Assembly: GCA_016937575.1 (NCBI GenBank)
Contig: JAFHKN010000002.1
Coordinates: 1,612,001 to 1,676,000 of the forward strand
Source of the DNA: Roseomonas aeriglobus
GTDB taxonomy: Bacteria; Pseudomonadota; Alphaproteobacteria; Sphingomonadales; Sphingomonadaceae
Direction of reading: 5' to 3'
DNA length: 64,000 nucleotides
Made by a program: the position numbers and the translations under genes. The number at the start of each line of letters is the position of its first letter. Within the stretch, counting starts at the first letter, position 1. The notes under the pieces were generated by a model that did no database searches, had not been told where the DNA came from, and saw nothing but the letters and a program-made list of their open reading frames with translations. Below, in pieces: positions 1 to 39,263 of the stretch.

Positions 1-668
1 GTCGCCGCGATCGCGACGGCTTCGCAGTACAGGCGGATCGCACGGCTTGCGTCATCGTTCGCCGGGACCGGGAAGGCGATGCCGTCCGGGCTGACGTTCG
101 AATCGAGGATCGCGACGACCGGGATGCCCAGCGTGTTCGCTTCCTTGATCGCCAGCTCTTCCTTGTTCGCGTCGATCACGAACATGATGTCCGGCACGCC
201 GCCCATGTCCTTGATACCGCCCAGCGACAGCTCGAGCTTGTCGCGCTCGCGGGTCAGCTGCAGGACTTCCTTCTTGGTCAGACCGGTGGTGTCACCCGAC
301 AGCTGCTCGTCCAGCGCCTTGAAACGCTTGATCGACCCCGAGATGGTCTTCCAGTTGGTGAGCATGCCACCGAGCCAGCGGTGGTTGACGTAATACTGAC
401 CGGCCTTGCGCGCAGCTTCCGCGATCGGCTCCTGCGCCTGGCGCTTGGTGCCGACGAACAGGACCTTGCCGCCGCCGGCGACGGTCGAGCTGATGAATTC
501 CAGCGCGCGCGCGAACAGCGGAACGGTCTGCGACAGGTCGAGGATGTGCACGCCGTTGCGATCGCCGAAAATGTACGGCTTCATCTTCGGGTTCCAGCGG
601 TGGGTCTGGTGGCCGAAGTGAGCGCCCGATTCGAGCAACGCGTGCATGGAGACGACAGGAGCCGCCAT
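1..668 (-). CDS. rpsB: 30S ribosomal protein S2 (C-terminal end outside window)
   Basis: The reverse strand encodes ribosomal protein S2, a structural protein of the small subunit needed for S1 binding and initiation. The N-terminus reads [20 protein letters not shown], and the S2 signatures for the [23 protein letters not shown] and [12 protein letters not shown] stretches all follow. The start ATG at 668 is preceded by an AAAGGA ribosome site. About 222 codons are visible; the C-terminus lies left of base 1. In most bacteria tsf follows rpsB, so it would be expected outside the window to the left. The upstream 300 bases are shared with a divergent SOS-type promoter. Confidence 0.97.
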
Positions 669-834: not shown

Positions 835-864
835 TTGACACCCGGAACGATAGAGGAACATAAA
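835..864 (+). promoter_or_regulatory. SOS-type promoter with LexA box between -35 and -10
   Basis: A perfect -35 hexamer TTGACA (835-840) is followed 18 bases later by CATAAA (859-864). Between them sits GAAC-GATAGAG-GAAC (845-859), an exact match to the GAAC-N7-GAAC LexA operator of alphaproteobacteria. The operator occupies the whole spacer, so bound LexA would block RNA polymerase. Transcription would run rightward into the small membrane-protein gene starting at 981, leaving a leader of about 110 bases. The leader holds a 7-bp hairpin (GTTCCGA/TCGGAAC, 891-909) and a possible 28-codon upstream frame (889-975) without a clear ribosome site. The rest of 669-980 is the divergent rpsB leader with nothing else recognised. 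Confidence 0.75.
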
Positions 865-980
865 GGCATCACCGCCCGAACAGAGCGGATGTTCCGACTT
901 TTTCGGAACAACTTATGTGGTCAAGCGTCTGGATTCATTGAGTTTCGGGTCAACGAAGCTCGGCAGGGAGCCTGAGGGTG

Positions 981-1208
981 ATGGCAATTCTCTCATACGC
1001 AGTGTTCGGTGCGGCTTTTGTGGCTGCGGCCTGGGCGATCTGGGCAACGATTGCGCCCCAATATGCGCGCATCGTGGATCTGCTCGTCAACGGTCCGGTC
1101 GTCACCCCGTTGTTGCCGGCGCCGGTTCCGGCGCGCAGCAATCTTCGCAACGTCAGGGTGCAGGGGCTGGCGGCATCGCCGCGATCGCCGCAGCGCGCTG
1201 CCGCCTGA
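981..1208 (+). CDS. Small single-span membrane protein, putative SOS-induced
   Basis: A 75-residue protein. Residues about 2-24 form one strong hydrophobic segment (MAILSYAVFGAAFVAAAWAI), followed by a short amphipathic stretch around residues 28-40 and then a Pro/Ala/Arg-rich tail that should be disordered. The ATG at 981 has GGGAG/GAGGG purine-rich sequence just upstream; a GTG at 978 is an alternative. I do not recognise a family. Its only visible control is the LexA-box promoter at 835-864, so it should be induced by DNA damage. Small inner-membrane SOS proteins in Caulobacter (SidA) inhibit division; a similar role here is inference only. The 3' 56 bases overlap the end of pssA on the other strand. 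Confidence 0.6.
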   Translation: MAILSYAVFGAAFVAAAWAIWATIAPQYARIVDLLVNGPVVTPLLPAPVPARSNLRNVRVQGLAASPRSPQRAAA

Positions 1209-1986
1209 TCTTCGCGTACGACCGGACGCTGAACGGCAGCGTCAGAAGGTACAGGATCGTCACGACGCTCAGCGTCTGCCAGGGGGCGGAAATCACGGCG
1301 GCCCCCACCGCGACGATCACGACGATCGCTTCGAACCGGATATTCCGGCGCAGTTTCAGCGACGACCAACTGTATGTCGCGAGGCTCGACACCATCAGCA
1401 CCGCGATCAGTGCGATCCACGGCGCCATCAGCCACGGCGATCGCAGCCAGGGCTCGCCGGTGACGAACCAGAGATACATCGGCAATAGCGCGAGCGCTGC
1501 GCCGGCCGGCGCTGGAACGCCGGTCAGGAACCCCGCCGATTTATGGGGCTGGTCGGCGACGTCGATCCGGGCGTTGAAGCGCGCCAGACGAAGCGCGGCG
1601 AACACGGCATACACCAGCGCGCAGATCCATCCGATCCGGGGTTCGGCCTGAAGCGACCAGAGATAGATCACGATTGCCGGTGTGACCCCGAAATCGATCG
1701 CGTCGGCGAGCGAATCGAGCTCAGCACCGAACCGGCTTTCACCGCGCAGCATCCGCGCGATACGCCCATCGATTCCATCGAGAGCCGCGGCGACCATGAT
1801 GAAGATCACCGACCGCTCCCAGTCGCCACCGATCGCGTAGCGGATCGCGGTCAGACCGGCACAGAGCGCCAGCGCGGTAATTGCATTGGGCACCAACGCC
1901 CGCAGCGGGATGCCACGGTCCGCCCGCTCGGTGCGGTCCCGCCGCCTCAGCGCGAAGCGCGGCTCGCGGAGCGGCTCACTGGGCAA
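1153..1986 (-). CDS. pssA: CDP-diacylglycerol--serine O-phosphatidyltransferase
   Basis: Makes phosphatidylserine from CDP-diacylglycerol and serine in the inner membrane, the first step to phosphatidylethanolamine. The CDP-alcohol phosphotransferase signature D-G-x2-A-R-x8-G-x3-D-x3-D is seen in [11 protein letters not shown]...GAELDSLAD. About seven hydrophobic segments follow, and the tail is Ala/Pro-rich. I place the start at TTG 1986, which overlaps the psd stop codon region by 11 bases and gives 277 residues, a normal length for the family. No ATG or GTG lies between the psd end and the conserved GIPLRA segment except a GTG within it that would truncate the N-terminus. Translated from the psd message. 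Confidence 0.93.
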
Positions 1987-2722
1987 CGCCAATGGCCCTT
2001 TGCACGCCGACACGGCCGATGATCGTCTCGCCGGCCACCGCGCGCTGACCGAGCGCGACCTGCGGCTCATAGCCGTCGGGCAGATAGACCTCGACGCGGC
2101 TGCCGAAGCGGATCAGGCCGATGCGCTGTCCGACCGCGACGATATCGCCGACCTTGGTGAAGGTCATGATCCGCCGTGCCACGAGACCTGCGATCTGCGT
2201 GAAGCCGACCTTCGTCCCGTCCGCGCCCTCGACCACGAAATGCTGTCGCTCGTTTTCATCCGACGCCTTGTCGAGATCGGCGTTCAGGAATTTGCCCGAG
2301 ATATAGACGACCTGGCGGATCGTCCCCGAGATCGGCGTACGGTTGATGTGCACGTCGAACACCGACATGAACACCGACACACGCACGAGCGGTGCATCGC
2401 CCAGCCCCTGCGGCCCGGCCAATTCCCGCGGCACCGGAACGCGCTCGATCATCGTGACGAGCCCGTCGGCGGGCGAGACGATCAGCCCCTCCCCCTGCGG
2501 TGTCGTCCGGATCGGATCGCGGAAGAAGGCGGCGACCCAGATGGTCAGGCCGATGAACGGCCACGCCCAGAACCAACCACCCAGCCACAGCGCGAGTAGG
2601 GCTAGGCCGCCGGCGATGATCGTGTATTTCCGTCCCTCTGGGTGGACGCTCGGAAACCGCCACTTGACGGTCGTCGTAACGGGCAGGCCGCCGGGGCCTT
2701 CGGGCTTGGAAAGCGAAGTCAT
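1976..2722 (-). CDS. psd: Phosphatidylserine decarboxylase
   Basis: Decarboxylates phosphatidylserine to phosphatidylethanolamine. The enzyme is made as a proenzyme that cleaves itself to create a pyruvoyl cofactor. Near the C-terminus the [11 protein letters not shown] segment carries the Gly-Ser cleavage site of the short, one-chain (PSD-A) class. A hydrophobic segment lies at about residues 35-65 ([16 protein letters not shown]). The start ATG at 2722 gives 248 residues; a TTG at 2758 would add 12 residues, but neither has a convincing ribosome site. The downstream pssA overlaps the end, so the two consecutive pathway enzymes are one transcription and translation unit. Confidence 0.93.
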
Positions 2723-2800
2723 TATGGTTCGATTAGACGTCGTGGCATCCCCTGACAACGCCGGATGCGGAGGTATCGATCCGGCGCGCGGCGGCGAACG

Positions 2801-3487
2801 TCAGATGCCGGTCCACTGCAAACCGGCCGGAAGGTCGGATGCCGAGAAGTCGACCTGAAGAACGCGCCGGTGGTTAGCCGAGATCGCCGCATCCGAGGCA
2901 TGAAGGATTGGCGTCGCATATACCCAGACATCGCCTGCCCGGGCCGTACATCGATAGATTCCACAACGGTCGACCGCATCGGGAACCGCCATGACCGGAA
3001 TCCGGCCGAGGAGATGCGAACCGGGTGCGATCAAGAGCGGCGCGTTCGAATCCGGCACGTCGTCCAGATGCACCCGCACGGTCAGCATACCAGCCAGCAC
3101 GCCGAAAGGCGGTTCGACATGATGCAATCCTGCCTTCATGGTCCAGGCGCCGAAGCCATCCACGTCCGCCCTGTTCCGCACGCAAATGGTCCGATCCTGA
3201 TGCCACCCGAGCGACCAATTCGTCGCTGGCGACTTGTCGAACAGAATCGCCCGGACTGCGCGGGCATCTGGGCCCAGCAGGTTCGTGACAAGCGCCCCGA
3301 TGTTACCCGGAGCACGCAGGACCGACCTGAGCGATGCGATGCCATGCAATCGCACGCCTGCACGATCCTGCGGGATCGCTTCGGCAATTGCGTGCAAGGT
3401 CGTCAGGTCGGGCAATGCCGCTCCGACGTAGCACTGCGCGCCATCTGCGGCCAACGTCAGGGGGCGTCTGTCGACAGTGTCGCTCAT
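2801..3487 (-). CDS. Phytanoyl-CoA dioxygenase (PhyH) family protein
   Basis: A 228-residue Fe(II)/2-oxoglutarate-type oxygenase. The iron-binding facial triad is visible as His and Asp in GWHQDRT and a distal His in APGSHLLGRI, with an Arg in the RRVLQVDF stretch that would hold 2-oxoglutarate. The double-stranded beta-helix signature order (HxD ... H ... R) is intact, so it should be active. The substrate cannot be read from sequence; relatives hydroxylate fatty acyl-CoAs, secondary metabolites or small acids. The start ATG at 3487 begins MSDTVDRRPL. It stands alone, divergent from icd, with about 115 bases between the two starts. Confidence 0.82.
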   Translation of the reverse strand: MSDTVDRRPLTLAADGAQCYVGAALPDLTTLHAIAEAIPQDRAGVRLHGIASLRSVLRAPGNIGALVTNLLGPDARAVRAILFDKSPATNWSLGWHQDRTICVRNRADVDGFGAWTMKAGLHHVEPPFGVLAGMLTVRVHLDDVPDSNAPLLIAPGSHLLGRIPVMAVPDAVDRCGIYRCTARAGDVWVYATPILHASDAAISANHRRVLQVDFSASDLPAGLQWTGI

Positions 3488-16800: not shown

Positions 16801-17871
16801 TCAGAGATCGTCGTCCGCGTCGGGGCCGGTCATCATTTCCTCTGCGACCTTTTCGGTGCGCTGGCGGATCGCCTTTTCCAGGCGGTCCATGAGTTCCGGG
16901 TTCTCCTTCAGGAACGTCTTGGCGTTCTCGCGGCCCTGGCCGATGCGGATGCTGTCGTAGCTGAACCACGCCCCCGCCTTTTCGACGATGCCCGCCTTCA
17001 CGCCCAAGTCCAGAATCTCGCCGATCTTCGAGATGCCTTCGCCATACATGATGTCGAATTCGACCTGCTTGAACGGCGGGGCGACCTTGTTCTTCACCAC
17101 CTTTACGCGCGTGGCGTTGCCGATGATGTCCTCGCGGTCCTTGATCTGACCCGTGCGGCGGATGTCGAGGCGGACGGACGCATAGAATTTCAGCGCGTTG
17201 CCGCCTGTCGTCGTCTCCGGATTGCCGTACATCACGCCGATCTTCATGCGCAGCTGGTTGATGAAGATCACCATGCAGCGCGAGCGGCTGATCGAGCCGG
17301 TCAGTTTGCGCAGCGACTGCGACATCAGACGTGCCTGAAGCCCGACGTGACTGTCGCCCATCTCACCTTCGATTTCCGCACGCGGAACAAGGGCGGCAAC
17401 CGAATCGACCACCAGCACGTCGATCGCGTTCGAGCGGACCAAGGTATCGGTGATCTCGAGCGCCTGTTCGCCGGTATCCGGCTGCGAGACGATAAGTTCG
17501 TCGATGTTGACGCCCAGCTTCTTCGCATAGACGGGGTCGAGCGCGTGTTCGGCGTCGACGAATGCGGCGGTCCCGCCGTTCTTCTGCGCCTCCGCGATCA
17601 CGTGCAGCGCAAGCGTGGTCTTGCCCGAGCTTTCCGGACCATAGACCTCGATCACGCGGCCGCGCGGCAGGCCGCCGACGCCAAGTGCGATGTCGAGCCC
17701 GAGCGATCCGGTCGAGATCGCCTCGACCTGCATCGCCTCCTTCTGACCCAGCTTCATCGCCGAGCCCTTGCCGAACGCGCGGTCGATCTGCGCGAGGGCG
17801 GCATCCAGTGCCTTTTGCCGATCCGAATTCGTTGCCATGCCGCTGTCGATGACCTTCAGGTTCGCTGCCAT
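16801..17871 (-). CDS. recA: Recombinase A
   Basis: RecA, the ATP-dependent strand-exchange protein and LexA co-protease. 356 residues. Walker A is GPESSGKT (residues 78-85), Walker B-like [10 protein letters not shown], and the DNA-binding loops are in the [20 protein letters not shown] and [20 protein letters not shown] regions. The acidic C-terminus ends PDADDDL. ATG 17871 gives the N-terminus [11 protein letters not shown], typical for sphingomonads; ATG 17838 is a shorter alternative. A LexA box about 80-90 bases upstream (17949-17963) shows SOS autocontrol. Single-gene transcript ended by the hairpin at 16717-16743. Confidence 0.98.
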
Positions 17872-17948
17872 GTGGGAAGCTCCGTCGCTAGGGCATCCAT
17901 CCGCCCGGTTCAACTTAACTGCGTCTATGTACTGATTATGTTCCACGA

Positions 17949-17963
17949 GAACAAGGGCGGAAC
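17949..17963. promoter_or_regulatory. LexA box of recA
   Basis: GAAC-AAGGGCG-GAAC, an exact alphaproteobacterial SOS operator (GTTC-N7-GTTC on the recA strand). A third half site, GTTC at 17940-17943, is placed five bases from the box. CATAAT on the recA strand (17935-17940) is a likely -10, so the box would cover the -35 region. Confidence 0.85.
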
Positions 17964-39231: not shown

Positions 39232-39263
39232 TTGCCCCGCTCGCTGACGTTCTCTACCTGTTC
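39232..39263 (+). promoter_or_regulatory. uvrD promoter with LexA box
   Basis: GTTC-TCTACCT-GTTC (39249-39263) is an exact alphaproteobacterial LexA operator ending four bases before the uvrD ATG. A -35-like TTGCCC (39232-39237) and -10-like TACCTG (39255-39260), 17 bases apart, would start transcription at or next to the ATG at 39268, so the operator covers the -10 and start point and the mRNA would have almost no leader. Confidence 0.7.

Follow-up and report, generated by a model that had tools for sequence, protein, structure and literature searches.

SulA of Escherichia coli is an SOS-induced, short-lived and soluble division inhibitor, and the same organism has the LexA-controlled one-span peptides TisB and DinQ, which act on the membrane and are paired with antisense RNAs. 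Outside the bearers of SulA, the SOS-induced one-span proteins known to us are mainly division inhibitors, namely SidA, YneA and SosA. In the parts of the literature consulted, FtsZ is given as the target of SulA, and SidA as an inhibitor of 29 aa that sits in the inner membrane and acts on FtsW (PMC4211646). The SidA locus of Caulobacter crescentus is CCNA_02004 (PMC11034885) and Caulobacter dnaE is CC1926 (PMC1839093), in the parts seen of either source; going by these gene numbers, sidA would adjoin dnaE. YneA of Bacillus subtilis is described, in the section consulted, as an SOS-induced one-span division inhibitor (PMC13396833). The consulted part of a further account credits YneA with a LysM domain and describes SosA of Staphylococcus aureus as a 77-aa one-span SOS-induced division inhibitor conserved by chromosomal place at low identity, with an extracellular C-terminus that is turned over by CtpA and whose extreme end governs turnover (PMC6851548).

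The gene described here would belong to a known kind, that of SOS-controlled small membrane proteins, and its product lies outside the library families.

Architecture of the locus and its promoter

The locus occupies 835..1208 of the window, i.e. of the whole 64-kb stretch of DNA that was analysed, and comprises with its neighbours the following features:

835-840, + strand: -35 element TTGACA (read from the sequence)
845-859, + strand: LexA-type operator GAACGATAGAGGAAC, of the form GAAC-N7-GAAC (from sequence and conserved place)
859-864, + strand: -10-like hexamer CATAAA, overlapping the operator; alternative ACATAA at 858-863
865-980, + strand: untranslated leader, with GAGG at 974-977
981-1208, + strand: ORF of 75 aa for the putative SOS membrane protein; alternative GTG start at 978
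3..668, - strand: rpsB (30S ribosomal protein S2), divergent neighbour, truncated at the window edge
1153..2070, - strand: pssA (CDP-alcohol phosphatidyltransferase of the CDP-diacylglycerol-serine type), convergent; bounds by mechanical start

The operator sits in the promoter spacer and shares its final C with CATAAA. TTGACA and CATAAA are 18 nt apart, or 17 nt if ACATAA is taken as the -10 element, and 116 nt of leader separate CATAAA from the ATG at 981. An earlier, sequence-only reading had noted these three promoter elements, a one-span protein of 75 residues with a Pro/Ala/Arg tail about 115 bases downstream, and an overlap of that tail with pssA on the opposite strand. The elements are indeed read directly at 835-864, the protein is that of the ORF at 981-1208, and the overlap with the 3' end of pssA amounts to 56 bp. 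The GAGG is a plausible ribosome site for the ORF, and the leader further holds an inverted repeat (GTTCCGA-CTTTT-TCGGAAC, at about 892-910). A strict sigma-70 scan of both strands of 600-1600 returned zero promoters, missing also that at 835-864, and Rfam searches of 500-1400 yielded two sub-gathering matches and none above the gathering score. A weak match to the Rfam rpsB sRNA family lies in the rpsB leader (672-766, - strand; 17.1 bits, the gathering score being 40). The neighbours are identified by profile matches: rpsB by PF00318 (3.9e-91) and TIGR01011 (3.5e-93), and pssA by PF01066 (9.2e-22) together with TIGR00473, whose 105.5 bits fall slightly below the cut-off of 107.

GAAC-N7-GAAC occurs four times in the window against 2.0 expected, a count reached in 14 of 100 shuffles; as about two are expected per 64 kb by chance, the box in isolation is weak evidence. 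Two of the other three boxes lie at recA and at the start of a helicase gene, and one (38400) inside a histidine-kinase-like gene, these gene names coming from a reading of the translations. The box at 17949-17963 stands immediately upstream of the minus-strand gene recA (16801-17946). That at 39249-39263 precedes the ATG (39268) of the helicase, which is UvrD/PcrA-like, by 5 bp, and the 64-kb window thus seems to contain three SOS genes. The lexA gene of the same genome likewise has a box, GAACAGACGACGAAC, directly upstream.

Conservation of the operator and the ORF across sphingomonads

Loci were compared from an rpsB anchor, which avoids choosing them by the ORF itself. The resulting set of 70 loci from 54 genera of Sphingomonadaceae consists of the 30 rpsB matches closest to that of the window, with a bias to near relatives, and of 40 chosen by hand, one per further genus from the places listed, genera without a listed place being absent. 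The joint conservation of box and span that the sequence-only reading had suggested looking for is borne out here: GAAC-N7-GAAC is found within 600 bp of rpsB in 59/70 loci and within 1500 bp in 60/70, and each box is followed by an ORF of 45-130 aa with a hydrophobic stretch. Eleven other orders of the tetramers at the same place gave 0-8/70 loci, and GAAC at other spacings gave 1-9/70. A chance box is ruled out by these controls (59/70 vs 0-9/70). With more distant units included (L182, L190 and L199), box and ORF are present in 63/70 loci and 48 of the 54 genera, and absent from the stretch read in the other 7/70. The hydrophobic ORF downstream of the box is weaker evidence: such an ORF follows in just 10/1180 block-shuffled regions, but also follows 82/560 other anchors of the same loci.

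For the family at large, 197 loci were collected, of which 11 were excluded beforehand, as repeat fetches (L031, L032, L033, L044, L046, L051) or as matches outside the unit (L007, L012, L027, L030, L093); 163 of the remaining 186 gave a candidate, representing 157 distinct proteins, with two doubtful rows among them (L003, where the wrong ORF was picked, and L184). In 137 of these 157 loci a TTGAC stands 7-12 nt 5' of a box (vs 16/3768 control windows), and the downstream half-site has the consensus GAACATA. Given this TTGAC-box-GAACATA arrangement, LexA would therefore cover the promoter core. Two or three boxes lie within 300 bp in 43/157 loci. Because the sequence and spacing of the box, the position of TTGAC and the selection on the ORF (see below) are all conserved, the locus stands above chance, and an alphaproteobacterial-type LexA operator that overlaps the promoter and is kept in relatives is well supported. 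A perfect DnaA box (TTATCCACA) is present in 14/157 family leaders (e.g. L005) against 0/157 control stretches, a hint that some lineages have a further input linked to replication.

Further searches started from the protein. The 75-aa protein matched 43/61 genomes at E 0.1; among 30 loci fetched, 24 had both rpsB and pssA, and all 24 carried box and ORF between them. A profile of 20 members (A1) matched 90/396 genomes of the order at E 0.01, including, among the matches listed, 45 of 46 same-genus genomes. When named genomes were scanned with one family member, at least 80 loci came up, nearly all of Sphingomonas and one of them in S. melonis AS2.3, which carries the unit; among the matches listed 77/80 have a box within 260 bp upstream, the three others being a locus cut by a contig end (L301) and two chance matches (L327 and L328). 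Two loci, L049 and L091, encode a clear family protein and have no exact GAAC-N7-GAAC box. The locus L252 (QDFQ01000001.1), titled Arthrobacter sp. TPD3018, carries a Sphingomonas rpsB-unit-pssA locus, and its label or assembly is probably wrong.

Ten family genomes without the unit in the rpsB stretch were re-examined via pssA. Nine gave a pssA match (G434 gave none), and in six of these (G318, G085, G484, G426, G140, G480) the unit converges on pssA; the other three (G094, G100, G088) have no exact unit there, and G100 has a one-mismatch box near rpsB. These genomes bear on the reading that the operator serves rpsB, the ORF being incidental. The box does lie 140-230 bp from rpsB in many loci, but the ORF is under purifying selection, TTGAC-box-GAACATA is directed at the ORF, and the six genomes with the unit at pssA have no rpsB in the fetched stretch, all of which leaves this reading scarcely credible. 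In other families of the order, 16/17 genomes gave a pssA match and 15 of these 16 stretches lack any box, as do seven rpsB stretches. In the remaining genome, G037, there are boxes, and a hydrophobic ORF of 60 aa is directed at pssA from 0.9 kb (locus L352, 399-611; LexA-type box, ORF end VAAE), perhaps an early form of the unit.

Coding status and the overlap with pssA

With the last 24 codons excluded, pooled pS is 0.385 and pN 0.114 over 21 ORF pairs, of which those inside the same clade are not independent; dN/dS ranges from 0 to 0.50 over these pairs, values for the whole ORF having also been computed. This purifying selection rules out a spurious ORF. The coding status of the ORF is thus well supported by sequence comparison, and purifying selection, the box controls and the placement of TTGAC together bear out that both the reading frame and the LexA-type operator before it are conserved.

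A pssA match is present at 149 loci, and at 138 of them the ORF overlaps pssA, in one phase in 136 of the 138; the median overlap is 59 bp across all 149. Some lineages have the unit at a distance from pssA. In at least 114/138 overlapping loci, one and the same PssA motif, [VI]-[RK]-[RQ], faces the stop of the ORF, and this fixed place of the stop fits a maintained gene. The PssA codon opposite the stop is AGG in 74 cases, AGA in one and Lys in 56. As a stop in this phase forces a codon beginning with A, an Arg of PssA must be AGG or AGA there; AGG in PssA was accordingly dropped as independent proof of coding, since the codon choice follows from the stop itself.

A scan of 960-3000 found no terminator-like site, though such a scan may miss terminators. 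As the overlap is common and no such site was seen, transcription into pssA is conceivable, and an effect on phosphatidylserine synthesis can be considered, in which PssA would be lowered either by SOS transcription that runs towards pssA or by the small protein. The frequent overlap and the adjacency to pssA in 6/9 genomes that lack the unit at rpsB are in line with this. Against it, a long coding overlap alone suffices to hold neighbouring genes in place; in 17 loci (two unreliable rows excluded) the stretch read shows either no overlap or no match to pssA; and 3/9 genomes have no exact unit at pssA. We consider such an effect quite unlikely, and no function is to be read into the overlap yet, because the overlap by itself binds the genes and there are lineages without it. 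A damage-to-membrane-lipid switch, whereby SOS induction would arrest division and throttle pssA while an ssrA-like end erased the signal after repair, is given a similarly low probability.

Protein anatomy and the C-terminal end

The window protein has 75 aa, with a short N-terminus devoid of K/R, one hydrophobic stretch and an Arg-rich Pro/Ala/Arg tail ending in RAAA. The median length across the 157 family proteins is 77 aa; as the choice of ORF required a hydrophobic stretch, their having one span is partly built in, and start codons were set by rule. There is no K/R before the span in 151/157, and the tails average 9.3 K+R against 2.9 D+E, with 1358 R to 103 K. By the positive-inside rule, this combination of a K/R-poor N-terminus with a basic tail predicts an N-out/C-in topology with the tail in the cytoplasm. 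In the Pfam, NCBIfam, PHROG and PADLOC libraries there is no fitting family for the small protein. Weak matches to MgtE, Rv1733c, WelK and two PHROGs, each in one of 28 members, were taken as chance.

The proteins end in AA in 137/157 and in VA in a further 11, against 1/45 among the window's long ORFs. Since the organism's own tmRNA tag, ANDNEALAIAA, ends in AIAA, we take the -AA end to resemble a ClpXP/FtsH signal. In the 138 overlapping loci this end lies opposite PssA codons, mostly of a V/I-[RK]-R motif, and these codons may impose it. Seventeen loci, which come from seven genera and exclude L003 and L134 (a stretch that ends before pssA could appear), lack either the overlap or a match to pssA; 14 of them end in AA and the others in LA, TA and VA. 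As all 17 end in A, the A-end seems to be conserved in its own right, although independent cases are fewer than 137/157 implies. The same ends are compatible with a membrane adaptor, whose span would bind a target and whose cytoplasmic -AA end would deliver the pair to ClpXP or FtsH for SOS-induced proteolysis of a membrane protein. The predicted cytoplasmic tail and the retention of the A-end away from pssA suit such a role, but self-removal accounts equally well for the -AA end, no target is known and PssA may cause part of the C-terminal conservation, so that we hold an adaptor to be very unlikely.

Comparison with described SOS-induced proteins

The sphingomonad gene resembles sidA in having a LexA operator at its promoter and in encoding a tiny inner-membrane protein of an alphaproteobacterium. 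SidA, however, has about 29 residues with hardly anything past the span. Outside this order, 9-10 kb upstream of rpsB were read in 40 of 142 genomes of the class with an rpsB match. In seven of the 40 regions (L203, L205, L217, L218, L219, L221, L224), a LexA box is accompanied by a tiny hydrophobic ORF towards dnaE, and inspection added an eighth (L236). These eight ORFs, of 32-47 aa (29 aa in L221 from an inner ATG), lie about 3.8-4.2 kb from rpsB, just upstream of dnaE, and are candidate SidA relatives beyond Caulobacter. In L221, the perfect DnaA box TTATCCACA recurs between the SidA-like ORF and dnaE.

The SidA-like ORFs share their promoter design with the sphingomonad unit but differ in charge pattern and profile: K/R stands before the span in every one of them and is lacking past it, except for one K in L203 and L205. 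As this pattern is the opposite of that in the sphingomonad family, the predicted topology is reversed. An hhalign comparison of the sphingomonad family (A2) with the SidA-like set (A3) gave no alignment, A3 consisting of eight short rows that do not include the Caulobacter sequence. The genome's own dnaE is about 92 kb away and its fetched stretch lacks a box. Further DnaE-like polymerase genes occur in this genome (G000) at C2:2974129-2976495, C5:12878-15808 and C5:243022-245500, one of those on C5 having an in-frame stop.

Kinship with SidA, a protein that the sequence-only reading had named, thus finds no support, given the dnaE place and shorter length of the SidA-like ORFs, their opposite charges and the lack of a profile alignment. 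A true distant homologue, relocated from dnaE to the opposite flank of rpsB and extended by a tail, would explain the common promoter design, the SidA-like ORFs about 4 kb from rpsB in 8/40 regions and the LVFGGA(L/T)-like stretches in single members of both sets. Yet the charge pattern and the gene direction are opposite, the profiles do not align (albeit with just eight short rows in A3) and the likeness of the spans is one of composition, and we deem such descent highly improbable. Since charge pattern and profile differ, the sphingomonad gene looks like a stand-in for sidA and not its orthologue.

By description, SosA is similar in size, in its one span, in conservation by place and, according to the part of its account consulted, in the role of the C-terminus in turnover. 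Its C-terminus is outside, whereas the sphingomonad protein is predicted from its charges to have the C-terminus inside, with an -AA end. YneA differs by the LysM domain after its span: LysM is found in 0/28 members of the sphingomonad family, and the window protein has no Pfam match, PF03846 of SulA included. SulA is moreover soluble, in contrast to the one-span membrane protein described here.

TisB and DinQ are much shorter than the 75-aa protein. A peptide of their kind would have the membrane and not the divisome as its site of action (depolarisation, growth arrest or tolerance), and it would agree with the SOS operator, the small one-span product and the long leader (116 nt here), TisB and DinQ being themselves LexA-controlled in E. 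coli. The greater length and strongly basic tail of the sphingomonad protein, which is under selection, speak against it, as do the alignment of 43 leaders, which gave no consensus fold, and the lack of an Rfam match above gathering at 500-1400; we regard this reading as unlikely.

Proposed function

The features above suggest the following course of events. By analogy with known alphaproteobacterial LexA, LexA sitting between -35 and -10 would block the promoter, and RecA-driven cleavage of LexA would open it. The product would be a 75-aa inner-membrane protein with, as predicted from charges, one span, an Arg-rich cytoplasmic tail and an N-terminus that is short, uncharged and outside. Most likely it would delay division by binding a membrane protein of the divisome, and its -AA end would probably present it to ClpXP or FtsH for removal once the damage is repaired. 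It would do the same job as SidA in Caulobacter or SosA in Staphylococcus, with its tail on the opposite face of the membrane.

We put the chances of this picture as a whole, a LexA-repressed, short-lived membrane protein delaying division during repair, at about even on sequence grounds. Division arrest as such is, by analogy, also about an even call, because the known one-span SOS proteins outside the bearers of SulA are mainly division inhibitors, no SulA was found and the design of SosA is parallel. In favour are the conserved operator and promoter design with purifying selection on the ORF, the same box type at the genome's own lexA and recA, the charge pattern across 157 proteins, and the AA end in most of them, also away from pssA, together with the AIAA of the tmRNA tag. 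The SulA family (PF03846) was found in 0/61 genomes, the E. coli control being matched, and the consulted part of the SosA account offers a 77-aa one-span inhibitor under C-terminal turnover control (PMC6851548). Against this, the -AA end may be imposed by PssA in the 138 overlapping loci; the tails of SidA, YneA and SosA are outside or negligible, so that a cytoplasmic tail needs some other contact; and there are the 7/70 loci without the unit in the stretch read and the two family loci without an exact box. Among functional guesses, a candidate role as an SOS division checkpoint is still the best.

Implications for sphingomonads

In the literature searched, with subscription journals largely outside it, there is no description of this particular gene, nor of the way in which sphingomonads arrest division after DNA damage. 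Most of the sphingomonads examined carry, usually adjoining pssA, a tiny predicted membrane protein under a putative SOS switch, which may be a brake on division during DNA repair. For sphingomonad division arrest, this offers one family-wide candidate with an operator, a predicted topology and a likely turnover signal. If the proposal is true, SOS division brakes would have arisen repeatedly as unrelated one-span proteins, even with opposite orientation in the membrane.
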